Source of the DNA: Pomacea canaliculata
Lineage: Eukaryota; Mollusca; Gastropoda; Architaenioglossa; Ampullariidae
DNA: 64,000 bases
Assembly: GCF_003073045.1 (NCBI RefSeq)
Contig: NC_037593.1
Coordinates: 4,827,525 to 4,891,524 of the forward strand
Reading direction: 5' to 3'
In this document: one piece after another, positions 3,036-31,469 of the stretch
Position numbering within the stretch: the first letter of the stretch is position 1
Layout: each line of letters opens with the position of its first letter
Program-made: the position numbers and the translations under genes
Notes under the pieces: generated by a model
Database searches by the model: none
The model's input: only the letters and a program-made list of their open reading frames with translations
What the model was told of the DNA's origin: nothing

Positions 3036-5332
3036 AGCTACCTCAAACCGCTTACCAAAAGCCAAATACAAAAGAACTAGCTTGTAACAAACAAATCTTT
3101 ACATGAGACGTAACTTGTCTCCATATCGTCGCGTTTACACCTGAGATTCATTGTCTTTGGCGATTTCCACCTCAGCTTCTTTATCAGGACCTCCTTGCTC
3201 TTTGTGTACATACCTAGTATTTTCTAGATCTTCCTCGCAGACCACCGTCTGGATTCCATCTGATATTTGCTGCATGTGTTGCTGAAAAGTCGTTGCAGCC
3301 TTCGACGTAGAGAAAGTCAACAAAACAATCCCATGATCATAATAGAACAGTCAAAGGGCTCTTCAGCTTTCTTTGGGCATGATCCGTCGATTTGACGACA
3401 GAGATTTCGAATCTTTGTACACTAGGTGGATGTAGGTTCTTTTTACATTCGTGGTCATAATAGCCTGGCATACAGGTCTAGACCTCAACTTACTTGTGGA
3501 TCATCCCAAGCATTATTGTTGTTGGGCGATCTTCGTTTCAGCTTGATAACTTGACCAATTAATTGTCTTCCAGGGAAAGAAGTTGTATTAGTGGTTGTGA
3601 TATCGGTATGGTAAAGATTTCTGTCATCCAGTAACACATCGATTCCGACGTCTGACTCATCTGATCATCCCAGTTGATGTTGATGCTGGCACGTACACAC
3701 TGTCGCCCTACATATACATATAAATATGCATATATGCTATTGCTATGCATATACTAATCTTTAGTGCATATATATGTCACGACACCGCTAGCGTCTCTCG
3801 TTCACACTCTGTCGAGCACACCAGTGGCGTCAGACAATTGCACGTTCTTTCTCTCCAATAGAACAAAATGATTTTCCTGTACGAGTCTGCCTACGTTTAT
3901 TAATAAAAAATAATTTTAAAAACCTCATTATGCAAAATCACAGTCACAAAAGCTCTGAATTTCTTCTGCTCCAGTCAAGCACACTGTCTCTGCAATGGTT
4001 CTGCCCTTCGACTAACACAATCACAAAACTCCACTGATTCTCTTACACACTAGTAAAGCACATTGTCTCTACAATGTCTCTCTCCTCGACTACATACCCT
4101 CAAAAGAAAATGCACTCAATCTCCTACACACTACTAAGGCGCATTGGCCCTCTACTCCGAATTACACAGTCACAAAAATCAACTGTGTCTTAGCATCTAG
4201 TATTACAGCTCACTGTCTTGGCAATGGCCTTTCCTTTTACTAACACAATCTCTCACACACTAGTGAGGCACACTGTCTAGGCAATGGCTCTCTACTTACC
4301 ATCCACCTCTCTCCGATTCCCGCACATTGTCCCGGCAATTACTTCTCGCTTCAATTAGAAACACAATCCTCCTACCCTCCATTAAGCGTCCAGTTTAATT
4401 GATTTACTCATCTTTTTTGTTTATAAGGACCAACTTGCTAACAATAATCACTTTAAAGGCTTTATATTGCTCCCACCTAAGCTACAAGCACCTGTGAGGA
4501 CCGTAAGTGTAAACAAAAAAGTACACACTGACAATTATCGGTCACAATATTTTTCCACACAAAGTACAAAAACCTAAGCCTTAAAAAGTAAGGCGATTTT
4601 AACTTAAACACAACATGAATAGAAGCATGAACCGCAATGATAAACCTAAAGCTGGTTATTTTAGAGAAACTTGGAGCAAGCAAGAAGTGCAACGTCGTTT
4701 TTAACTTAATGAAGAATGAATAAAATAACGATAAAAAGTATGGAACATTTATGATCACAGCACAGAACTGGATATAAAATGTGCAACTAGCGGTTCCAGG
4801 TTGTAGCTAATAATAATAATCATCATCATCGTTGAGCTATCTCAAAGCTCTTAACAAACATAAAATACAAAAGAAGGACAAACATCTTGCGGCTCTCTCG
4901 CTGCAATTAACGGTGCCTGCATGGATGAAATGTTCACAGACCAAGATGCTGATCTAGTTCACTTGAAATGTACAGGTCGTAAAGGTGTTGTTTCTTCCAC
5001 AGCTAACACAGAAAAACATCAGCCACTAATACATAGTCATGACTAGGAAAGTCATTAGTCATTAATAAAGCTTCAAAGCAGTCACCTGAACGTTAGCCAG
5101 CGCTTTGATAAGTTAAACGTTGTTTGCACGATTTATTGAAACAACGCTCGTCGTATTAGCATAATCTGTGAAAAGCAGGATGTCTGTAAATACACATTCG
5201 AGTAATCCGGGTTTTCAGTGTAGAAACCATAACATGTAACAATAGACAACAGCCAGCGGAATTTGTGGCAAAACTTTCCAGCGTCGCGGTAAATGGTGCG
5301 AGTGATGAGAATGATGCTGGTACTCTGTACAC

Positions 5333-13622: not shown

Positions 13623-15463
13623 ATGGCGGTTGTCGTTATGCTGATGTTGATGCAAAGCAAACGCGGTCTCCGCCGCAGCAGGATTATTCGCGACAGGACC
13701 AACCCCCTCGACACCTTCGACGACGTGGAGATGTACAGCAAATTCCGATTCCGTCGTCACGACATTCTAAGCATGGTTGATGAAATCAAAGACGAGCTGG
13801 AGATGGCGAACCGAGGATACACTGTGCTGCCATGCATCCAGGTGTGTGTGGCTCTGCGTTTCTACGCCACGGGGTCATTTCAGAGTGCATGTGCAGACCT
13901 GGCAGGTATTTCTCAGCCGACGGCAAGCAGGATCATCAAGCGAGTGACGAGAGCCTTGCTGAAGCATGTACAGCAGTGGATTATATTCCCCGACCAGAAA
14001 GGAAGCAGACAGGCAGAAGAGCAAGTTCTATAACATCGGGGGATTCCCCAATGTCGTTGGGTGTCTCGATGCCACCCATATAAGGATCCAAGCTCCGAGA
14101 AACAATGAACACGAGTATCTCAACCGAAAAAATTATCATTCACTAAATGTTCAGGTGAAACGTTTTAATATTTTCGTTGGTGTTTTAAAAGCTTTTTTTT
14201 AAAAAAACAAAAACAAAAAAAACAACAAAGTTTTTCTTTTAAAACTGGTTGAAGGAAATGACTCGGATCTAAAATCCTCCATTGTTATTGACAGCATCAA
14301 CATTGCCCCAAAACATTCACCATGTTTTTTCAGACATAAACAAGAGAAATGAAAAAAAAAATTAGCTCCCGAGCAACACTGGTCATTATATACATAAAGT
14401 TTTTACCACACACATATGAAAATTAATTTTGAAAACATAGATTCCAATCAGACGTTTTGAATCAGTCTTTGTAGAGTTTCCTCCCTTGGAGATTGTAACG
14501 ATTGTAGCTACGTTCATGATTGTAGCACTGACAAGCTAGCAGCTCAAGGCTGTAGCTGCTACCCCTGCACGTTTCCCCCTACTCCTGTCTTTTTACTAAT
14601 GCTAGTTTGCTCGGCTCCCACTTAACCTCCTCTCAGCTGTCGAATTAGTATGTAGGTGGAGGTGGGGGTGAGCGCAACGGTTTCGACTGCTTTCACTTGT
14701 ACACTTGTACACACATCCCTTTAACGTTCTCAGAGACGAGAACGCAGTCATCTACATCGTTATTTGTCAACAGTTTATCTGTAACGCCGACATGCTGTTC
14801 ATCGACGTGGTAGCCAAATGGCCGGGCAGTGTGCACGATGCCCGCATTCTTCGCCAGTCTCGTTTCTTCTCTGCCTTTGAAGCCAGCCCCAGACCAGTGG
14901 ACGGCACCATGCTGGCAGACAGCGCCTATATGATGCGCGAGTGGCTGATGACACCTTACGAAAACCCAGCCACCTAGAGCAGTGGCGATACAACGTGGCA
15001 CACAGCTCCACACGACGCCCAGCAACGAAAGCTATCAGTGAGTGTTAGTCCATCAAGTACAAATCATTATTGGTAAACAGACAAGTTTGAGCTTTTAAGC
15101 ACTTTAGGTTTCTGCAGTCAGTATGGTTATGAAGGTTGTTATGTTTATTATGTTTATGCAGGGTTTGCGAAGAAAAGATGGCATTGTCTCCGTGGACTGC
15201 GGTTAGAACCGGAGAAGGCCTGCCAGGTGACAGTGGTGTGTCTCATGCTCAGCAACCGGGCCCGCTTCCTCAACTTGCCAGATCCTCATGATGATGCTGA
15301 GGATCAAAACGATGAGCATGATGATCAAGATGAAGATGAACTCAAATATGACTTGCTTCAGGATAAAGTAGCTACACAGGATCTTTCGAATGAGAGGACA
15401 AAGGTTGAAGAAGGTGAAACTGCAAGGAACAGTGTTGCTTATCGATTCTTCTGGGGTTTGTAA
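13623..15463 (+). pseudogene. HARBI1-like PIF/Harbinger transposase, broken
   Basis: Three exons are legible: 13623-14154, 14774-15037 and 15162-15463, joined by GT/AG introns. The product follows vertebrate HARBI1 and Harbinger transposases from end to end: FDDVEMYSKFRFRRHDI near the start, a helix-turn-helix-like block (GSFQSACADLAGISQPTASR), the first DDE-site aspartate in GGFPNVVGCLDATHI, EYLNRKNYHSLNVQ, the second aspartate in VVAKWPGSVHDARIL, EWLMTPYENP, WRYNVAHSSTR and KKRWHCLRGLRLEPEKAC. An unusual acidic tail follows (DDAEDQNDEHDDQDEDELKYD). The frame changes by one base twice, once near 14020-14030 (between SRQAE and SKFYNIGG) and once near 14965-14975 (between PYENP and SHLEQW). 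As it stands it cannot make a full transposase unless these are assembly errors. No terminal inverted repeats were identified. The intact Myb/SANT-like gene to the right lies convergent to it. Confidence 0.85.
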
Positions 15464-20100: not shown

Positions 20101-22784
20101 TTTGGGTTTCAAACAAACTGTTTAGTTACAATCAAGTCTAAAACACCGGTTCATGGTTGTTCAAAGGCTGCAATGTTTACTAATCTTTCTAGAAGGAAAA
20201 CAAACTGACTCATATTTGTGATGCAGGAAACAGCATGTGATGAAACATTTTCTGTCTCACCAGCCTTCTCCACTTTGCTCAGCTCTTTCTGGTTCAAAAT
20301 TGTTTGGCATGATCCCAAGATCCATGGTGCCAGCAGTCTGATGACCGCCTTAGGAGACAAAGAGTGAAAGCAGGTGCCAGATCGTTTGATGATGCCAACC
20401 AAAACATGGTGACCTAACTGTACCACCCAGGAACTGTGTTTCAGATGCAACCTTAAGTAAACGATTATTTTGCAACCCAAAATTTTGAATGAAAATGGTC
20501 CCAAACATCAGTATCTATCCTTTAACTCCTAATTACTATTTCACTTGGCCTTTTCCTTTAAGTCTAATGGTAGTAAACTTGCCAGAAAAAGATTCCTTTA
20601 TCTCCAGTATCATTAACTAGTAGCCTCACACTGATGTCCAAGGGTAAGGAAAATAACACTTGACAACACATACCTGAACAATTCATCTTTGTTTGCAGAA
20701 TAAAGGTCTCTGTTCCTTCAACTGGGAGAAACCAAATGATCAACTTATCTAAAAGCTGTTCTATGTAACCTTTCGGTGGTTACAAGTTAACATTATAAGG
20801 TACCAAAATTTAAGAATATTTTATCCTTTCACTCTCTAGAGGCAACAAAATCATAGTATATTCAATTCCATATTTGAACTAATGTACAAGATCCACACTC
20901 CACACACACAAATACATTTCTGTATACACTTACATGCAGGTCTTACAAGCTTTATCAAGCTGGCAATCTCTTTATAATTCAAGTATGACTAAAACTACTT
21001 TCCAAAGTCTGTACACCTAAGAAACGTCACAGCTAGTGGGCATGCTGGCATAAATTCATTTACTCTGAGATTGATCCTTAACCACTACAAAGACAGAAAA
21101 ACTGGTATAACTAAACTGTCAGAAAAATCAAAACACCTCATGACAACACTGGGATATATATCAAATAAATGATATAAGGTCATGTGTCAAGCCTGGTGGC
21201 CTAAATATTAAACTTTTTCAGTATATAAAGCTGCTATAGAGCCTTGAGGGAGAAAAAATTTATAAAACTCATAAATTATTCATGACAAATCTGTCACTGC
21301 AACACACTGTCACTACTGCTGCTTGCTAAGAGAAATGCCTCATGCATTAGAGGAATTCCTCACCAGTATTTTGTATACATGCCTTGAATTCTTCATAATT
21401 AAATTTTTCTGTTCCATTGCAAAATATCTAATCCAAAGAATGAACACGATAGATTCTTGTATTTTTCAATTAACTATGTGTGTGTGTGTATAAAGAAATA
21501 ATTATACATTGCTAATCTGTGCAAAATGCATCTTTCAATGAGAAGGCTGGTAACAGATTTTTACTTAGTCATGCAATGCTAAATTCTCATTGCACTGTGG
21601 ATATTATAATTACATCTGACAAAATTCACTTTCATATGTGCAGTAGCTCTGATATCAAACCAATGGACACTGCCTGGCCAGGGGAGGCCATCAATGCTTG
21701 TTTTTGGTTGCTACAGAGTTATCTAATTACCTCTTTTTTAAATGTAATTAAAAATTTTCTTGTGTTAAGAAAGGTATAAAGCATTACTTTGTAAATTTAA
21801 TATAATATCTCGATATTTTATAGTATTATTAATAAGTTGTTTAAATAAGCTGCACTTCTGTGGTTTAATCTTGCTCAGATGAACTGTAAAATATGTATGC
21901 CATATACTATATTTAATCATTCAAAAATGGTTCTTTGCTCTGTAACTGAAAGATATGCCATCATTCACTATTCCCTATCTTTAATATAGTGTTAATATAC
22001 ATTTATGAGCAAATGCTTCAAAGCAAAATAATGTACTATACTGAGATACAGGTAACATACACTGAATCAAACAAAAATACTCACCATTTATGCCATCTAT
22101 GAGGGCAGAGTCTTCACCAATTATCTCCAGAATCATGTTATCATATTCACTTTCTTTCACTGCACCCCCACCTAAGGTCTTTTGTTTGTGCCTGCGGCTC
22201 TGGGCATCAGATTTAAGGAACCCCCACTTTTCTCTTACATTCTGCGCTGTCCGTATGTCAACACCACAAGTTGCGGTCAATCGGTCAGCTATCTTCTGCC
22301 ATGTCACCGCTTTTTTCTTATTGGAGGTTTCATTTGTCTGTGGGCACATAATGCACTCTCTTTCCAGCTTCACCTAATGACAATAAGAAGTTTATCAAGT
22401 TGTATATGTCCTTAAAAAATAAAGTAAACAAAGAAGCGCAATATAAATCGCAATAACACACAACTAAAATAGAAAAGGGGCTGAAAATCTATTAAATGAT
22501 ATATGCATAAATATCTCCCAACATAAAAAGAAATATAGATAGCTAAAAGTAAAAAAAGCATAAGAAAAGAACTCAAATACAACTTTTTAAAACAAAAAAT
22601 AATACAATTTGATATCAGTCATAATTACTCATTTACTGCATGTTTGTTTATAGTACACGAAATCGCACACCTCTTCCAAAAGCATCCAAATTTCCCGGCT
22701 CGTCCAGTTAGCTCTTCTCTGTTTTTTGGATGGATTCGATGAGGATAATTCCTCTCCCTCTGAAACAGTTCGTTTGGGATCCAT
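17110..22784 (-). CDS. Myb/SANT-like DNA-binding protein, six exons, intact
   Basis: Minus-strand exons 22659-22784, 22085-22373, 20674-20721, 19291-19362, 18926-18997 and 17110-17306 join in frame to 267 codons plus a stop. The start is the ATG at 22782-22784 (MDPKRTVSEGEEL). Residues about 27-100 form a Myb/SANT-like (zeste/MADF-type) trihelix domain: NWTSREIWMLLEEV, then KKKAVTWQKIADRLTATCGV, then TAQNVREKWGFLKSDAQSRR. An acidic linker follows. The last exon is a charged coiled coil (MEEFLKSEIERNKSIVELNK...LEIERLKG). The donor of exon 1 is the least certain junction (GTGTAC at 22658, or GTGTGC twelve bases earlier). All other introns are GT/AG with matching phases. Such proteins accompany PIF/Harbinger transposases and carry them to DNA; vertebrate NAIF1 plays this role for HARBI1. 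The transposase fossil at 13.6-15.5 kb is convergent with it. It may be the second gene of that transposon or a domesticated host gene. A MITE lies in its last intron, and exons 1-2 have a copy at 26.3-27.0 kb. Confidence 0.75.
17903..18174. mobile_element. MITE with TA target duplication in the Myb/SANT gene intron
   Basis: The ends are inverted repeats (CACCTCCGCC...ACTATGGACTGG against the complement of CCAATCCATAGCTACGG...GGAAGGTG) and are flanked by TA on both sides. Inside, short sub-repeats of the TCCATGGCTACAGT / TAGCTATGGACC type recur in both orientations. The TA duplication suggests a mariner-like parent; no coding sequence is present. Confidence 0.6.
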
Positions 22785-23211
22785 GACGACTGTGCAAACA
22801 GATGAATGATGCCACAAACGTGAGTTGAGCAATGAAACAGTCGTCCACTAGGAAATCCGGAAGACCAGTTATTTGGGGGCATTCTGAGCATGCGCAATGA
22901 CAGGATTTTCCCCTACATCCGGTCGTGTTTCTAAAATTAAACGGCCTTTGAACTCGTCTATGGGCCAATGGTCTGCGACTCGTAGGCGGGGTTTTCAGGG
23001 CAGTTAATTAGTTGTTTTGTTTGTTTTAAACAGGCCTTTACGGCAAATCTTCACCATACATATGTTATGACCCTTGTCTACACCGCAGATATTTGGACTT
23101 TCACGTGCAGTTACTTAGATAACTTTTGACTAATGCGACAACCCGAATTCCATGTACAAATAGTGATGTAAAGAAAGTAGAAATATATAATGTCCGTGCA
23201 CTGTCTGCCCT

Positions 23212-23760
23212 AAAACCTCCTTGTGGGAGATTTTAAAAATGGTTTCGCCCGCGTGAGGGAAGGTATGAGTACACGCGATGCCGACAACTAGAGGTCACTG
23301 GCCCCCAGTTAGTACATCGACAGGTGGGCGGGGTACAGGTACACAAACACTGCCGACTGCCCCAAGCATATAAAACGTCTGTCTCACCTGACTAGTTCTT
23401 GGGTCTGAGAAACAGCTTCTATCTGAACATACTGTCGTGTTTAGGACTGACTAATGAATGGTTTCTCCATGAAATAAACAAAGAGAAAGATAAAGGAAAA
23501 TGAGAAGGATGCATGGACAGCGAAAACGATACAATCATACAGATAACTAAAACTAAAAACAATTGATGTTTATTGCTCTAATCTATCTTTCTGTACATCT
23601 TTCTTTACTCATCAGAGGGGATAATAATATTTAGCATTTTCAGCTCATTCCCCATGATGACTGACCTGAAGTACACCTCCATTTGAGTGCAATATTCGTA
23701 CTTTTACAAATGGCCAACAATTCACGACTGCAACATATAGTGCCCACACAGACTTTTCTT
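23212..23760 (+). repeat. Left arm of the outer inverted repeat
   Basis: It pairs with 27995-28968. It holds a sub-repeat (TTCTATCTGAACATACTGTC, then TTAGGACTGA) that also occurs in the arms of the inner element, so the two elements are relatives. Confidence 0.7.
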
Positions 23761-23839
23761 CGCTTATCTAACCCGACAATTATGCCGGGTGGAGGTAATC
23801 GGTGCTTGCTCGTCTTCCTGAGACAACACAACTGAAAAC

Positions 23840-25790
23840 TAGACTAGAAGAAGACTTTTACAATCAAAAGACTTAGGACCAGTTTAGCACCCATGATTTT
23901 GTTTGTGTTTCTCCCTTGTGAGAAGAGAGAGAGAGAACAAGAAAGGAGACAAAGACAAACCCCAAATGACACAAAGGAAAAGGCAATGGAATGTTTAAAC
24001 TTGGTTTTTATTCCTCTCGTTTATTTATTTATTTTTTTTTTTCATTTCCACTGGTGACCGACATACGGCATTGCATCTGGGTTTGGGTACAGTGCTTGTT
24101 CTTTTTGAACGACCCAAGTGGGCATCAGTTCACGCCTGTTACAAAGTACCCATTCGCCTTCTGCACAAGCGGTTTTTTCTCCAGATATTTCCTGTCTTTC
24201 CAAAGTCCAGCAAAGTCTATCATTTTCCAATATCGCGTGTATGTGCTATTGCGTATAGCTGGATTTTGAGGACAAGCCGCCTGTCCATTCAGTCGTGAAC
24301 TCCGGGGAATGAGCATGCGAATGTGGTCAGAGGTTGCGATTCCCGCTGCCTCGGGCTGTTCACACTCTCGACACCTCTACCAACTCGCGCCGACATAAAC
24401 GTGTACGCGCACACTTACACTAAATTGCTCATTACACTTTAATTGACTCAGACCCCCCAGCGTACCTGGTATCTGGTTTTATTAAGCAGTTAATATACAT
24501 CTTGTCAAGTCTCACTTTTCGTCGATTTACTTTACAAGGCGTCACTTAAATGCCCACGCAGACTATACCCAGACGTTTAGAACTGCCCGGAAGTTTCGAT
24601 CCACTACACTGCTACGTCCAACCACTCTGTAGCTAACCCATGATAGACAGGTGGTTACTCTGACTTATTCCAGCCCCAAACTACCCACCCCCTCTTTACC
24701 CCCTCTCACTAGTAATGCTATCTGCGACTACGGCGCCATCCCGTCTGGCTTCCTATTCTCTACTTATGTCCAACGGGTGGCAATGATAGGTGGCGCTGTT
24801 GTCCTGTTTCAGGTGTGCCGCGGACTTCTATAATTAACGGGCGTAGACTGACCGATGCTCTCCCCTTCTCTGAGAGCTCCCCTGAAGTGAAGACTACCAT
24901 CCCGCATTCCAACCTGACGTAAGCGGTCCGCGGTTCACAGGCCTACTGATTCCAGGTGAGATAAACGGTGGTGAGACTTCTTGGCCTTTTGTCCACCCGA
25001 CGGTCCAGTGCCGCCAAAGGCCGCCTACCCTGTCTCGACATAACTCACCGCTAACACATTCCCACAATTACCCGTTTACCTTCTGACAGTCTGCTTACCA
25101 GTGCGTCCGCCTGTTTCGTGGAGAGAACAGAAGCGAGACACCAACGCTATAGCATGAAAAAACACGTTAACTGATGAAGATCTGGAAATGAATAATATAA
25201 TTTCAATTGCTAAATCCAACCATCATTGATAAATGAGATAATATTTTACCATCAATGATCGCACTTTTAAAACTGAAATTGTTCTTACCACGGTACAGCT
25301 CAACATCGACAAAAGTTTTGTCTCTATAGACATGTTCGTTACAGTCTAAAGCCCCGGATGTTATTGCACATTTACAGATTATTTCCCAGAAGTGAATGAG
25401 TAGCTTCTACAGAAGTGCAGATCGAGTGTGGTAAGAAAATGGTGTAGTAAAAAGGACATCAAATTCATGAGATGGACACGACTGTCATTTTCCAGATTCA
25501 GAGTGTAAGAAACAAAGTAAACATAACAACTGGAAACTAAAATAATACCACTACAGTGTGAACACTACCGTACATGCACGTCGCACTCAAAATTTGGGTG
25601 GAATACACACATAGTACATGTACATGTAAGCACGGACTACAAGCCGAATAGTGATATCACTGCTTACGAGGAGAGAGGGATTAGAGATACAGAGAAAGAC
25701 GAAAAAGCAGTAAAAATGGAGTTTGAAAATTCAGTTGTTTTTTATGTTTCTGTTATTTGCACTGCTCATCATTCTCTCCTTTATATATTC
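23840..25790. other. Unrecognised spacer inside the outer inverted repeat
   Basis: No open frame with family motifs, no splice-supported exon and no known repeat was recognised. GC content is somewhat higher around 24.3-25.1 kb than in the flanks. A short inverted motif (ACCATCATTGAT / ATCAATGAT region) lies near 25217-25260. Confidence 0.4.
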
Positions 25791-25792
25791 TA

Positions 25793-27568
25793 GTTTTGTT
25801 TTTTGGTAGAGAATGCATTCAGTCCTAACCCTGACAGTATGTTCAGTTGAAAACCGTTTCTCTTCATCTTCGTAAACGCCAACAGCAAGTACCCGGGTGA
25901 GAAAGACGTTTTATTGCGTGTGACAGTTCAGACAGAAGTCGTTTCGCCCCAGCGGTCAGACCCTGCGGCAAGTTCTGGTCGGGTGGGGAAGACGTTTTAT
26001 TGCCAGGCTACTCGGCGGTGCCTGTGATGTCCACCCCGCCTTTTGTCCGGGTAGTAATTGGAGACGACTGGCGGCCAGCAGTCCGCACCACGTGTACTCC
26101 TACCTTCCTTCTGACGGCCAGTAACATTCGCTACCATCCGGCCGGTAAACTTCGGCCTTTAATCATTCAAAAATGGTTCTGTGCTTTGTAATTGAAAGAT
26201 ATGCCATCATTCACTATTCCTATCTTTAATATAGTGTTAGTATACATTTATAAGCAAATGCTTCGAGGCAAAATAATGTATTATACTGAGATACAGGTAA
26301 CATACACTGAATCAAACAAAAAATAATACTCACCATTTATGCCATCTTCGAGGGCAGGGTCTTCACCAATTATCTGCAGAATCATGTTATCATATTCAAT
26401 TTCTATCCCAGCAGCTGCACCTATAGTCCTTTGTAAGTACCTGCGAGTTTGGGCATCAGATTTAAGGATCCCCCACTTTTCTCTTACATTTTGTGCTGTC
26501 CGTTTGTCAACACCACAAGTTGCGGTCAATCGGTCAGCTATCTTCTGCCAAGTCTCAGCTTTTTTCTTACCGTTGTTTTCATTAGACCGTGGGGTCAAAA
26601 GGCACTCTCTTTCCAGCTTCACCTAATGACAATAAGAAGTTTATCGAGTTGTGTATGTCCGTGAAAAAAAATAAGTAAACAAAGAAGTGCAATATAAATC
26701 GCAATAACACACAACAAAAATGGAAAAGGGGCTGGAAATCTATAAAATGATATATGCATAAATATCTCCCAACTTAAAAAAGAAATACAGAGTATAACTA
26801 TATATATCTGTAAGTACGAAAAGCATAAGAAAAGAACTCAAATACAACTTTTTAAAACAAAAAATAATACAGTTTGATAGCAGTCATAATTACTCATTTA
26901 CTGCAGGTTTGTTTAAGTACACGAAATCGCACACCTCTTTCAAAAGCATCCAAATTTCCCGGCTCGTCCAGTTAGCTCTTCTCTGTTTTTTGGATGGATT
27001 CGATGAGATAATTCCTCTCCCTCTGAAACAGTTCGTTTGGGCTCCATGGCGACTGTGCGGACAACTGAATGATGCCACAAACGTGAGTTGAGCAATGAAA
27101 CGGTCGTCCACTAGGAAATCCGGAAGACCAGTTATTTGGGGGCCTTTTGAGCATGCGCAATGACAGGATTTTCCCCTACATCCGGTCGTTTCTAAAATCA
27201 AACGACCTATGACCTCGTCTATGGGCCAATGGTCTGCGATTCGTACGTGTGGTTTTCAGTACACGGGGTGCGGACTGCTGGCGGCGAGTCGTCTCCAATC
27301 TACTACCCGGACAAAAGGAGGGGTGGACATCACAGGCACCGCCGACCGGCCTGGCAATAAAACTGTCTTCCCACCCGACCAGACCTTGCCGTAGGGTCTG
27401 ACCGCTGAGGTGAAACGACTTCTATCTGAACTGTCACACGCAATAAAACGTCTTTCTCAGCCGGGTACTTGCTGTTGGTGTTTAGAAAGCTGAAGTGAAA
27501 CGGTTTCCAACTGAACATACTGTCAGGGTTAGGACTGAATGCATTCTCCACAAACAAGCAAAATGTTT
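25793..27568. mobile_element. Gene-capturing inverted-repeat element carrying a Myb/SANT gene fragment
   Basis: The left arm 25793-26103 and right arm 27256-27568 are inverted copies, about 300 bp each. Paired landmarks are GAATGCATTCAGTCCTAACC at 25811 with its complement ending near 27542, GACGTTTTATTGC near 25909 with GCAATAAAACGTC near 27441, and CCGGGTAGTA...GGAGACGACT near 26047 with its complement near 27290-27310. The interior (26104-27255) is almost wholly a copy of bases 21904-22997, that is the promoter side, exon 1, intron 1, exon 2 and part of intron 2 of the neighbouring Myb/SANT gene, in the same orientation. The arms contain tandem sub-repeats (GAGAAAGACGTTTTATTGC-type). No transposase is encoded, so it would be a non-autonomous, Pack-type element. 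Confidence 0.75.
26334..27047 (-). pseudogene. Captured copy of Myb/SANT-like gene exons 1 and 2
   Basis: This is a near-identical copy of the first two coding exons of the gene at 17.1-22.8 kb. Exon 2 (26334-26622) has the same length (289 bases), the same splice sites and an open frame (KKKAETWQKIADRLTATCGV, TAQNVREKWGILKSDAQTRR). Exon 1 (about 26923-27047) is one base shorter than its source: in the copy the stretch after EEL lacks a base near 27006, so the start codon at 27045-27047 no longer reads into the Myb domain. The four downstream exons are absent. The fragment lies between the inverted arms of the inner element. Without the coiled-coil half, any product would be a DNA-binding domain alone, but the frame shift in exon 1 argues for a pseudogene. 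Confidence 0.8.
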
Positions 27569-27994
27569 CTAACATCTTTATTTCTCACTAACTTATTAAC
27601 TGCCACGTTACTGTCGTGAACATGTTGTTGAACCATACCACCTGAGGCATTCATACTTTCATACATCCTCTCGCACCCACTGCCTCGTGCCCCTGGATGC
27701 ACACGTCTTTGGTGATGTGCTGAAGATTTAGAACCTTGTGGGTCGATTCTACCAGAGTAACATGATCGGTGTGATATGAATGTTTTTGACATGCGTGACC
27801 TTGCATCTGACATCACACTGTTCCCGTCGGTTAGGGGAAACTGTTCTGCTTGAAGATGTGACAGACTGGCGCTTCAAGAAGTCAACGACTAACACTAACC
27901 CTAACCCACCTAACCGTGGCAACCGTTTCCTCAAAAAATTTTCAGTAACATGTCCCAAATGGAGCGAAGAAATACCGTGGGGGCACTATATGTT

Positions 27995-28968
27995 GCAGTC
28001 GTGAATTGTTGGCCATTTGTAAAAGTACGAATATTGCACTCAAACGGAGGTGTACTTCAGGTCAGTCATCATGGGGAATGAAGCGAAAAAAATGTTAAAT
28101 GTTACCATCCCCTCTTATGAGTAAAGAAAGATGTACAGAAAGATAAAGAGATGAAAACAATAAACATCAACTGGTTTTAAATTCATGCAGTTATCTGTAT
28201 GATTGTGTCATTTCCACTGTCCATCCTTCTCAATTTTATTTTTCTTTCTCTTTGTTTATTTCATGGAGAAACCATTCGTAACTCAGTCCTAACCACGACA
28301 GTATGTTCAGATAGAAGCCGTTTCTCCTCACCATTCTGAAAGCCTACACTGGCCTACAGCAAGAACTAGTCAGGTGAGACAGACGTTGTATTGCTGTGTC
28401 AGTCGGCGGTGTTTGTGTACCTGTACCCCGCCCACCTGTCGATGTACTAACTGGGGTACGTGACCCCTACCTGTGGGTGTAGCAAGATAGGACCTCTCCT
28501 CAAGATCAGAAGTTCCTCGAGGTATGCAGACGCTGTGTTTTGTAGTGTTGCTGAATGGATTAGCAGACATTTTCGTGGTATTTTTTTATCAAAACCAAAA
28601 ATAAAGCGTGAGTTGTATGTGTTTAGCTTTTTTCATGTTATTTTTATTTAAATTTGACTTGTAGTTACTCCTTAGCAGACGATCAAACACCAACTCGCGC
28701 AGTGATATCAAAGAAAAATAGTCCCACTATACATATTTCTTTGCAAGCTGTAATTATTTGAAACTAAAAGTTTTACGTGTTTCTCTACTGTTAACTTTAA
28801 TTTTGTAGTATGCACAGACCATTGGTTCTCGCTGAGAGCTCGGTTCTGTCCTTACAACACCTTGAGGGAACTTCTGATCTTGAGGAGAGGTCCTATCTTG
28901 CTACATGGGCACTTCGTATACTCCTACCTTTCCTCACGCAGCGAAACCATTTTAAAAACGCCCACAAG
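27995..28968 (-). repeat. Right arm of the outer inverted repeat
   Basis: Inverted partner of 23212-23760, split by the 428-bp MITE at 28478-28905. Removing the MITE and one TGGG duplicate restores a continuous arm of about the same length as the left one. Confidence 0.7.
28478..28905. mobile_element. 428-bp MITE with long perfect terminal inverted repeats
   Basis: The ends begin TGTAGCAAGATAGGACCTCT and match each other as perfect inverted repeats for about 39 bases (28478-28516 and 28867-28905). It is flanked by TGGG on both sides (28474-28477 and 28906-28909), a 4-bp target duplication. The interior is AT-rich and non-coding. It interrupts the right arm of the outer inverted repeat, so it is younger than that element. 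The perfect ends suggest recent movement. The family is not identified. Confidence 0.8.
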
Positions 28969-29229
28969 AACATCGGCCTTTGATATGTGCTCATGTCAAC
29001 ATACGGCAGGGATATCAAGAATAGATGTGTTTCACTATTTCTTTAAGTTTGACTGGAATCTCATCCCGACGATGCACTTGTTAGCTCGTGGCCCCTGTCT
29101 ATCGCGGGGCCTTGAGTTGTTGCTCCTACTCGCCCCCACTCCACCACCCCACCCCACTCACTTTAGCACCGGCTCTGATGCACACAACACTTGGAACACA
29201 ACTCTTCTGTGCACAGTCTCTAAAACATG

Positions 29230-29235
29230 TTTATT
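29230..29235 (-). terminator. Polyadenylation signal of the 29-31 kb chitin-binding gene
   Basis: AATAAA on the minus strand, about 150 bases past the stop codon, in a context (TTTATTTTCGATT on the plus strand) shared with the signal of the neighbouring paralogue at 32874. Confidence 0.55.
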
Positions 29236-29387
29236 TTCGATTGATATGACGGATTGTAAATTTCTGATTTCATTAGATTAAATGAACTGATTTTTACATT
29301 CTGTCAAATTCTTATTAAACGTTGTTCAATGTTAGTGCGTTGGTTGCTTCCGATATATATATCTTGTCTTTAAATCAATCAAAATCC

Positions 29388-31469
29388 TCAAACTGCTGAA
29401 TTCTCATCCGGCTTAGAAGGCCAGACGCGTTCACTTCCTGTTCCGCAAGGAGGCTTTACCAAGAAGGGCCAATCACAGTTGTTCTTCTCGGGGTTAAAGA
29501 TCAGACCTGCAACAGAAACTTTGATCAGTATAAAATAATCTTACCACCACGACAAAGATTTGGCAGAAGGTGAAGACAGTTTGATGGACCACTCACAGTT
29601 TTGTCGAAGGTGGATCAAACAACGACTCTCGCGCCCTAATACATTGAAAATACAACAAATGCTTGTGTTCCTAAAAGGAGCCATGTTCTCGAAGGAGGTG
29701 TTACTGAGGTTACTAAAGGACTGCAAAATGTTTGGATTAGCGGTTGTGGAAAACATGCAATGATGGGGGCTGGATCACCGGTTGTTCCAGAGATTGGCGA
29801 CAGGTAAGAACTGTGTGCACTCCTTTGTGAGGACTGTCTTTTAACTGGTGGCCACTAGTGCGCAGTTCTGAGCTACGAGACAGGAATGTCTGTGTAAACC
29901 ACAGGTGATCTTACATGCCTGGATTAGGTCGTCCCTCAATCTGCATTACACGAAACTTGGCATCCTTAGTTCATCAAGTCTGTCCATGTACCCAAGGTGG
30001 GCATAACTTTGCTGCTCTATGATACCCGTTCCCAAGCAGGGTACGTCTTTCATCCGTGATCAAACTACCTTTCCAAATCCCAAACTACAGGCATGCCGGA
30101 CGAATCCATCATTAACGACAAGAACGATTGTTTGTCAATGTAGCTGAAGAAGGTTCTTATGGGACCAAACAACTGGTTAGACTCGTGGACCGCTTTAAAA
30201 ACCGAAAGCTCTGAACAACCATATATATATATTAGTGATCGAAAAAAACAAACACACACTGGCCAAGAGAATGGGTCTATCTCTAGTTATATGTTGTCGT
30301 CATCACCGATTGATCAAAACGAAAATTCTTCGACTGAGTTTCAGTTACAGGTATATGTTCCCTTCACTGAATGCTCTTTAAAAGAAATCTGGATCCACTT
30401 ACTCGCAGCACATTTGGTGTATCCATAGAACTCCTCGTGCAGGCACGTGTAAAACTGTTGACACCGGCTCGAAAAGTCTGGGTAGTTGCCATCGATGATG
30501 CCAGTGCAATTGGGAGCCGTGCCACACGGAGGCTTTACCAAGGACTTGCTGCAGACAAAAGAATAAAAAACCTCCAACATAGAAAATAGGACATGAACGA
30601 CGTGGAAGCAGAGCATCATACCAACGACTTGCAGACACAGAACAACATCACTCTAACAACTTGCAGACAGAGAATCCAACTACATCCAGCGACTTGTAGA
30701 AACAGACCCAACACTCCAATGACTTGTCTTAGTCTTTGCTATTTCCATTAAGTCTCTCTGTCCGAGGTAGGCTTATCTCCAGACCCCGTTTCTCTAACTG
30801 CCTTGTAAGTGAGCTAAGTAATGGCTCGTATGACGATAATAATAATATTTTCCAGAAGCCATCTTTCTAACAAATTTTAAGCTCTTGAAAAATGCATTTT
30901 AATGTAAAGTGGCCATATTAAAAAAAAAATCAACTAACCAACAACACAAAAAACCCAAGCAATTGCATGACTTGACTCCGGATGTTGTAAACAGGTGAAC
31001 ACTACTCACTAGTCGCACCACATCTGCTTCTCGTTGACCACCAGCTTGCCAGGACAAGGCAACATCCGGGTCGTCTCGTTCTCGCACCTGTAGAAGTGGG
31101 TGCAGTCGCCGATGTACAGGCCATCGTCCAGGCCCGTGCAGTCGTAGAACGTGTCGTCTGGCTTACCATCCTTAGGAACACCTGTGTCATAAACGATTTG
31201 CTTCTCTGAGCCTTTATTTCTGTGAGCGTTCACGTCGGTTATTTTAATATGTGAACGTTAGAGACAGCAGCGACTGATACAAGGGGGAGTTTTTACACGT
31301 GATCTATTGTAAATGGAAAGTTTTAGGTGTAAATGTGCTTTGCAAAATTATTATTATTACAGTTAACAAAGATTCTCACTAGAGACACAACAAGATCTCA
31401 CTACTGACCCTCAGTGCGGTGTACAACGTTCACGATGCAGACGAACAAGATGGCTGCCGCTGCGTTCAT
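29388..31469 (-). CDS. Secreted chitin-binding protein with two CBM14 (peritrophin-A) domains, paralogue 1
   Basis: Four minus-strand exons, 31409-31469, 31010-31205, 30403-30548 and 29388-29506, with GT/AG introns in phases 1, 2, 1, give 173 residues. Exon 1 encodes a start and hydrophobic signal peptide (MNAAAAILFVCIVNVVHRTE). Exon 2 plus the start of exon 3 encode the first CBM14 domain (cysteines 43, 55, 61, 71, 84, 94); the rest encodes the second (100, 115, 121, 132, 145, 155). The aromatic positions typical of chitin binding are kept (CTHFYRC, CQQFYTC, NNCDWP). The motif LVKPPCGT occurs at the end of both domains. The predicted role is extracellular chitin binding, for example in mucus, gut lining or shell matrix; tissue cannot be told from sequence. 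A TATA box lies about 105 bases upstream of the ATG. It is the last of three tandem paralogues on this strand. Confidence 0.85.

Follow-up and report, generated by a model that had tools for sequence, protein, structure and literature searches.

A Myb/SANT gene fragment between two opposed Kolobok-like transposons of Pomacea canaliculata: a probable product of break repair

How did the first half of a Myb/SANT-like gene come to lie, a second time, between two inverted arms only a few kilobases from the gene itself? The question is raised by positions 25793-27568 of a 64,000-nucleotide stretch of the Pomacea canaliculata genome (contig NC_037593.1, positions 4,827,525 to 4,891,524 of the forward strand), which we call the window and whose own numbering we use throughout. 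An earlier note, made from the letters of the DNA alone, had read this segment as a single inverted-repeat element of the Pack-MULE type, ending at the two arms and carrying a captured fragment of the neighbouring gene.

The source of the fragment is the 5' half of the Myb/SANT gene (21912-22998), whose coding strand is the minus strand; it was delimited by alignment, a profile match and a genome search. It contains an upstream stretch, exon 1 (approximately 22676-22784), intron 1, exon 2 (22086-22373) and part of intron 2. The copy (26158-27259, minus strand, in direct orientation relative to the source) starts at the TTTAA of the element to its left and contains each of these parts, intron 2 being represented by its beginning. 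It comprises 1,102 bp made from 1,087 bp of source, aligns at 90.1% identity over 1,107 columns including gaps (1488 bits, far beyond chance), and is identical at 997 of 1,082 gap-free bases (92.1%). Because the introns and the upstream sequence are present in the copy, it was made from DNA. A search of the whole genome (440,159,624 bases) with 21800-23219 gave two matches, the source and the copy (two candidates, both scored), which are spaced 4.2 kb apart, start to start. These results bear out much of the earlier reading: a near-identical copy of its segment 21904-22997 does lie between the arms, with borders now placed as above, the introns do point to DNA rather than RNA, and a piece of the neighbouring gene was indeed captured at the DNA level in a transposon setting.

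The arms of about 300 bp are present as well. The left arm (25794-26098, plus strand) and the right arm (27563-27258, minus strand) align at 91.5% identity over 307 columns; gap-free, 281 of 304 bases are identical, and the gapped alignment scores 426 bits, far beyond chance. With the left arm and its tail as query, and with 40 out of 601 genome candidates scored, there were at least 41 matches, of which 39 lie beyond the window, so the arms do recur elsewhere in the genome, as the earlier note had asked to be checked. Element counts for the family to which they belong are lower bounds too (40 of 901 candidates scored).

Complete copies of this family are 4,395 bp long and lie elsewhere in the 440-Mb genome. 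In the first three full copies examined (L058, L059 and L060), the arm forms the right-hand end of a longer repeat. Two of these, L058:1330-5724 and L060:1127-5520, share 98.9% identity across 4,404 columns, have the ends TTAAAGGCCGAAG...CTTCGGCCTTTAA, and are flanked by TTAA on both sides; the flanks of L059 are CTAA and TTAC. A script run on 30 loci, plus strand only, printed 11 rows for the right-end flank, and as L007 and L012 are one place, these represent 10 distinct places, of which 8 show TTAA and 2 show TTGA. The superfamily Kolobok is marked by a TTAA target and AG...CT ends (PMC9587614, PMC6004289); the family studied here has TTAA as its target site, and its termini AGGCCGAAG...CTTCGGCCT begin with 5'-RR and end with YY-3', as in Kolobok. 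L058 contains an open frame of 574 aa whose profile match is to PF20700 'Mutator-like transposase' (E 9.6e-09), and a CITH stretch can be made out in it by eye. A Kolobok transposase is a DDE enzyme with a C/DxxH motif, and MuDR and Kolobok are among the superfamilies said to share that motif (PMC9587614). By target and ends we regard the family as Kolobok-like; the membership of its transposase in the superfamily is putative. Self-comparison of L058, L059 and L060 showed inverted end repeats and no direct ones. A search for host fragments in other family members, in which nine complete or near-complete elements (L058-L060, L069-L071 and L072-L074, a small and non-random sample) were compared with the L058 element, revealed mainly family sequence, and the one long insert examined (L072:3559-6095) was another high-copy repeat (at least 51 matches; 40 of 317 candidates scored). 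Among the matches listed, outward-facing family termini approximately 170-185 bp apart were seen on contigs C1, C4 and C6 (for example, C1:3241104-3241276); these are apparently MITEs of the family. Chance matches to the terminus pattern are frequent, with 357 genome matches at one mismatch or fewer compared with 123 for the control.

Alignment to the complete copies showed that each arm is only part of the right end of a longer element. The left arm belongs to TE1 (23205-26162, plus strand), an old, internally rearranged Kolobok-like element that matches positions 20-71, 278-962, 3580-3755 and 3939-4395 of the L058 element, with a short match at 255-282. Its outermost 19 bp or so on the left are degenerate, and the left border is probably near 23205; its right terminus, CTTCGGCCTTTAA at 26162, is an exact match to the family terminus (C4:4853673-4853686). 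TE1 also contains another repeat (24292-25172, right border approximate), of which separate copies are found, for example at C2:655504-656906. The right arm belongs to TE2 (27258-28983, minus strand), an inverted Kolobok-like element with its left terminus at about 28983; read in reverse, it matches positions 3-71, 281-448, 2500-2893 and 4011-4306 of the L058 element. Its right end is shorter than that of TE1 by about 60 bp, and its left end contains a small inverted-repeat insertion (28478-28914) whose ends (28478-28523 and 28859-28905) are 95.7% complementary over 47 columns.

The order is thus source, 206 bp, TE1 (left to right), gene copy and TE2 (right to left). TE1 and TE2 stand tail to tail, with the family right ends facing inward onto the copy and the left ends outside; the outer flanks are CTAA (left, in the degenerate terminus) and TTGA (right), each one change away from TTAA. 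Since each arm is the right end of a different element and points inward, 25793-27568 cannot be a transposon that ends at the arms. The bounds given to it fall elsewhere in the structure, as 25793 lies in the interior of TE1, and at 27563 TE2 has lost internal sequence that the complete copies possess. No target duplication was seen by eye in the 30 bases around 25793 and 27563, and none is expected because both are interior points. The case cautions that where arms surround a gene fragment, an element does not necessarily end at them.

The junctions are short and precise. At the left junction, TE1 ends GGCCTTTAA and the copy continues TCATTC, while the source reads TATTTAATCATTC; TTTAA (5 bp) is common to both. 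The copy starts exactly at the terminal TTAA of TE1 and at TTTAA in the source, where the TTAA at 21913-21916 abuts the point that the TE1 right terminus occupies in the copy. At the right junction, the copy ends ..TTTTCAG and TE2 continues TACACG, so that the copy ends within the shortened tail of TE2 on a 2-bp overlap (AG). A motif scan found another TTAA in the source (23004-23007) that starts 6 bp past the end of the copied stretch; a TTAA starts within the next 6 bp at 4.3% of window positions. The similarity between source and copy stops at the transposon borders on both sides, and the source flanks 21701-21911 and 22999-23204 had no convincing match in the neighbouring stretches (14 comparisons, 40 shuffles each). 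One of the 14 rose above its shuffles (22999-23204 against 23765-25792, plus strand, 27 compared with a maximum of 25) and is taken as chance. For 22999-23204 against 28984-30500, the local scores on the two strands were 19 and 26, with shuffled maxima of 34 and 26. Sister-chromatid transposition of one element, like an exchange between two direct copies of a transposon, predicts 22999-23204 beyond the copy, and both were rejected on this alignment, which does not rise above shuffles.

TE1 and TE2 appear to be sisters. In IQ-TREE trees, they were nearest relatives in the left region (14 rows, bootstrap/SH-aLRT 95/98) and in the right region (34 rows, 96/94), and the idea that TE2 is an unrelated later insertion was rejected because they are sisters in both. 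A quick FastTree run joined them in the right region (0.95) and kept them apart when given a shorter left region of 25 rows, where the neighbour of TE1 had 0.25 support; our call of sisterhood leans on the longer left region over this shorter one. Right-region identity is the same between TE1 and L014 (90.8% of 261 sites) as between TE1 and TE2 (90.8% of 305). TE1 and TE2 differ at 78 of 844 sites (55/540 in the left region and 23/304 in the arms), compared with 44 of 686 sites between the non-coding part of the gene copy and its source (Fisher P 0.046 combined, 0.020 for the left region alone and 0.50 for the arms alone). A pair that has diverged more than the non-coding copy is what would be expected if the pair came first, and this comparison of sequences weakly suggests that the pair may be older than the capture.

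Opposed pairs of this kind are also found elsewhere. A genome pattern search for two family termini on one TTAA found four places, two of them exact and the others with 2 and 3 mismatches. Because this pattern equals its own reverse complement, every place is hit on both strands; a reversed version of the pattern, used as the control, had 2 hits per strand. By alignment to L058, one exact place (C7:1553644-1553665) is a tail-to-tail pair and the other (C8:27795259-27795280) a head-to-head pair. Both (L074 and L078) have a single common TTAA and palindromic centres. Therefore, pairs of the proposed starting type exist in this genome.

The gene that was copied has a transposon connection of its own. 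The source encodes a Myb/SANT-like domain (PF13873 Myb_DNA-bind_5, E 2.8e-07), and pieces of a Harbinger-type transposase lie approximately 7 kb away, at 13623-14977 (PF13359, E 3.2e-13 for 14705-14977). When 22 rows of exon 2 (Myb) matches were compared by eye with 62 transposase rows, 10 of the 22 had a Harbinger-type transposase match no more than 10 kb away on the other strand, with the two facing each other, and the gene and transposase in the window are one of these 10 pairs. This supports the Harbinger-type link that had been suggested for the gene. Two Harbinger-type elements, on C2 (L075/L063) and C6 (L076/L077), are 99.0-99.5% identical in the end parts fetched; they have the ends GGGCCGTAGTCTCATCG and GGGGCCATAGTCTCATCG and contain a transposase and a Myb gene facing each other. 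When such clear ends were sought beside the Myb gene in the window, no matching ends were found, and the source was not placed in a bounded element.

The copy itself is most likely a dead fragment. A 1-bp deletion in its exon 1 throws off the reading frame after 14 codons; exon 2 stays open, with no stops and no indels. A role as a repressor, which had been considered for the copy, is unlikely because of the frameshift in exon 1. Exon 2 has changed more than its surroundings: source and copy (22086-22373 and 26335-26622) differ at 39 of 288 sites compared with 44 of 686 non-coding sites (P 0.0006), and exon 1 differs at 2 of 108. As synonymous and non-synonymous sites are both raised (dN 0.145, dS 0.183), selection at the protein level alone is insufficient to explain this excess. 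The differences are clustered, with 16 in 60 columns (matched by 3 of 2,000 random placements), and when polarised by four paralogues, 23 fall to the copy, 7 to the source and 9 are ambiguous. No gene-conversion donor was found among the four paralogues compared, as not one of them resembles the copy more than it does the source.

We propose that a gap at a broken opposed pair was filled by copying the neighbouring Myb/SANT gene, which we consider, with moderate confidence, to be the best explanation of this locus. Two sister Kolobok-like copies would have stood tail to tail about 200 bp upstream of the gene, probably joined at one common TTAA that formed the middle of a palindrome. A break there or close by may have removed about 60 bp of the TE2 tail while leaving the TE1 tail intact to its TTAA. 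The TE1 end could then have annealed to TTTAA in the neighbouring gene (5 bp in common), been extended by about 1.1 kb of copying, and rejoined TE2 on the 2-bp overlap. The outcome would be a direct, single-copy duplicate of the first half of the gene, forming a filler between inward-facing tails, and the filler would have turned the palindrome into an interrupted, presumably more stable, inverted repeat. We favour break repair because one event explains the short range, the two microhomologies, the single copy and the truncated tail. Such features are familiar from other cases. Of 281 unique Pack-TIRs in animals, 160 have their source no more than 15 kb away, in most of these cases no more than 5 kb, and the microhomology, where present, has a median of 2 bp (PMC8277862); all 39 of the inspected human/hominid duplications with a donor within 5 kb bear the marks of break repair (PMC2671141); and inverted repeats have been described as break sites (PMC3855049). 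Several observations count against this proposal. The left junction lies exactly at TTAA, as insertion by a transposase would also require, and the second TTAA, 6 bp past the other end of the copied stretch, is left to chance (the 4.3% given above). The breakpoints of Tan et al. are biased to the element interior, and here one is at the very terminus (PMC8277862). The age difference is weak (P 0.50 for the arms alone), and sisterhood is absent in the short left region of FastTree, with L014 equally similar to TE1.

The main competitor, which we consider rather unlikely, is that the block moved as a composite transposon, in which TE1, the gene piece and TE2 travelled together, by means of the outer pair of left ends, to a TTAA some 200 bp distant. 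TE1 and TE2 would first have inserted in opposite orientations at the TTAA sites 21913 and 23004, flanking the 5' half of the gene, and the donor would later have lost both elements by exact excision or have come from a haplotype that lacked them; a small deletion at a later time would account for the 2-bp joint at TE2. This version makes good use of the TTAA at the TE1 terminus in the source and of the other 6 bp past the far end of the copied stretch, of the outer CTAA and TTGA, each a single change from TTAA, and of the fact that no convincing further copy of 22999-23204 lies beyond TE2. It requires, however, that the block hopped a very short distance, that both elements excised exactly or the donor was polymorphic, that two left ends were used, and that about 60 bp of TE2 were later lost together with the TTAA and 5 bp on the gene side; and a second copy of the block was not seen (40 of 633 candidates scored, and the genome search with the source). 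More doubtful in our view is alternative transposition during replication, in which the ends of two nearby elements insert together into a nearby unreplicated TTAA, and re-replication runs through TE1 into the sequence flanking it, which is the gene from its TTAA onward, and through most of TE2, before it aborts and the broken ends are joined. This would explain an exact TTAA border on one side with a ragged end and a truncated TE2 on the other, as well as the small microhomology joint and the empty TTAA at 21913, and it resembles the maize P1-rr-T22 insertion, where two re-replicated fragments were joined on a 4-bp microhomology (PMC4270019). However, maize uses one 5' and one 3' end (PMC4270019), both outer ends here are left ends, and the deletion partner is not visible in one genome. 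It is possible, as a tentative broader hypothesis, that opposed Kolobok-like pairs act in animals as composite transposons or as sites of alternative transposition, and that the block of TE1, gene and TE2 (23205-28983) either was transposed as a single unit by its two left ends or re-replicated the gene lying between the two tails. If true, opposed-pair transposition would extend the maize mechanism to a TTAA transposon of P. canaliculata.

Two simpler readings fare worse. An ordinary tandem or segmental duplication of the gene region, with TE1 and TE2 inserted afterwards, would fit the similar divergence of the copy and the elements, and the right end of TE1 could have inserted at a TTAA; we regard it as improbable since the similarity stops at the transposon borders on both sides, and the source flanks 21701-21911 and 22999-23204 are without a convincing match in the stretches tried. 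As for one Pack-MULE-like inverted-repeat element, its inverted arms and its captured fragment are real, but the arms run on into TE1 and TE2, the family termini face inward, the target is TTAA, and in the complete copies L058 and L060 the arm lies within the right end. We have rejected the single element on this last ground and give it hardly any weight.

In sum, this locus, probably formed by break repair at the opposed pair, is a good case of a known kind of event and not a new kind of mobile element. Plant Pack-MULEs resemble the locus in that a gene fragment with introns lies in a transposon context. They differ in their host, here an animal, and in the target: MULE target duplications are about 9 bp, and as the target here is TTAA, the Pack-MULE-type layout suggested by the earlier note does not apply. 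Pack-type capture in animals has been published, with 370 Pack-TIRs in 100 genomes (PMC8277862); neither words beginning 'mollus' nor 'Kolobok' occur in the main text of that paper. Gene capture by Kolobok is named in no title among the matches listed for 'Kolobok' with 'captur', which is not proof of absence.

Pack-TIRs by definition have 100-5,000 bp of filler that separates two pieces of a single TIR family, with a source identity of at least 90% and a length ratio of 80-120% (PMC8277862), and the filler here lies within these limits (1,102 compared with 1,087 bp; 90.1% gapped, 92.1% gap-free). They are also defined by the absence of a transposon within 100 bp of the source; considering the TE1/TE2 family only, the nearest is the left end of TE1, about 206 bp away, and the source gene itself seems to be part of a Harbinger-type pair, which bears on this point. 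A Pack-TIR is one split element with a left and a right outer end, and here both outer ends are left. Like the single-copy Pack-TIRs of animals, our case is a DNA-level copy of nearby sequence between pieces of TIR transposons, with a short distance, a single copy and microhomology at the joints (here 2 and 5 bp), and gap filling is proposed here as for most of them; unlike them, the filler lies between opposed tails and starts at the very terminus (PMC8277862). The locus is also like the repair-mediated proximal duplications of Pace et al. (2009), which have a donor within 5 kb, microhomology, a deletion at the joint and a repeat as acceptor; the human linked duplications comprise 824 cases of up to 619 bp, and ours is about 1.1 kb at an opposed transposon pair (PMC2671141). 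In the maize Composite Insertions of Zhang et al. (2014), termini likewise flank a duplication that starts at a transposon end and has a microhomology joint, but one 5' and one 3' end are used, not two outer left ends (PMC4270019). The carrier elements share a TTAA target and 5'-AG..CT-3' (RR..YY) ends with Kolobok, including the KolobokP of molluscs; KolobokP has long terminal direct repeats (approximately 450 or 660 bp), whereas the TE1/TE2 family has inverted repeats only, and direct ones are lacking in L058, L059 and L060 (PMC9587614, PMC6004289).

We believe that the locus is a clean case of transposon-linked gene-fragment duplication in P. canaliculata. Its carrier arrangement, an opposed sister pair, is of a type that also occurs in this genome in uninterrupted form, and this makes it testable whether DNA breaks at opposed pairs and fragments of nearby genes accumulate there. 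The kind of event is already known; what sets this case apart from the published Pack-TIRs is an opposed-pair carrier with a filler that starts at the terminus.
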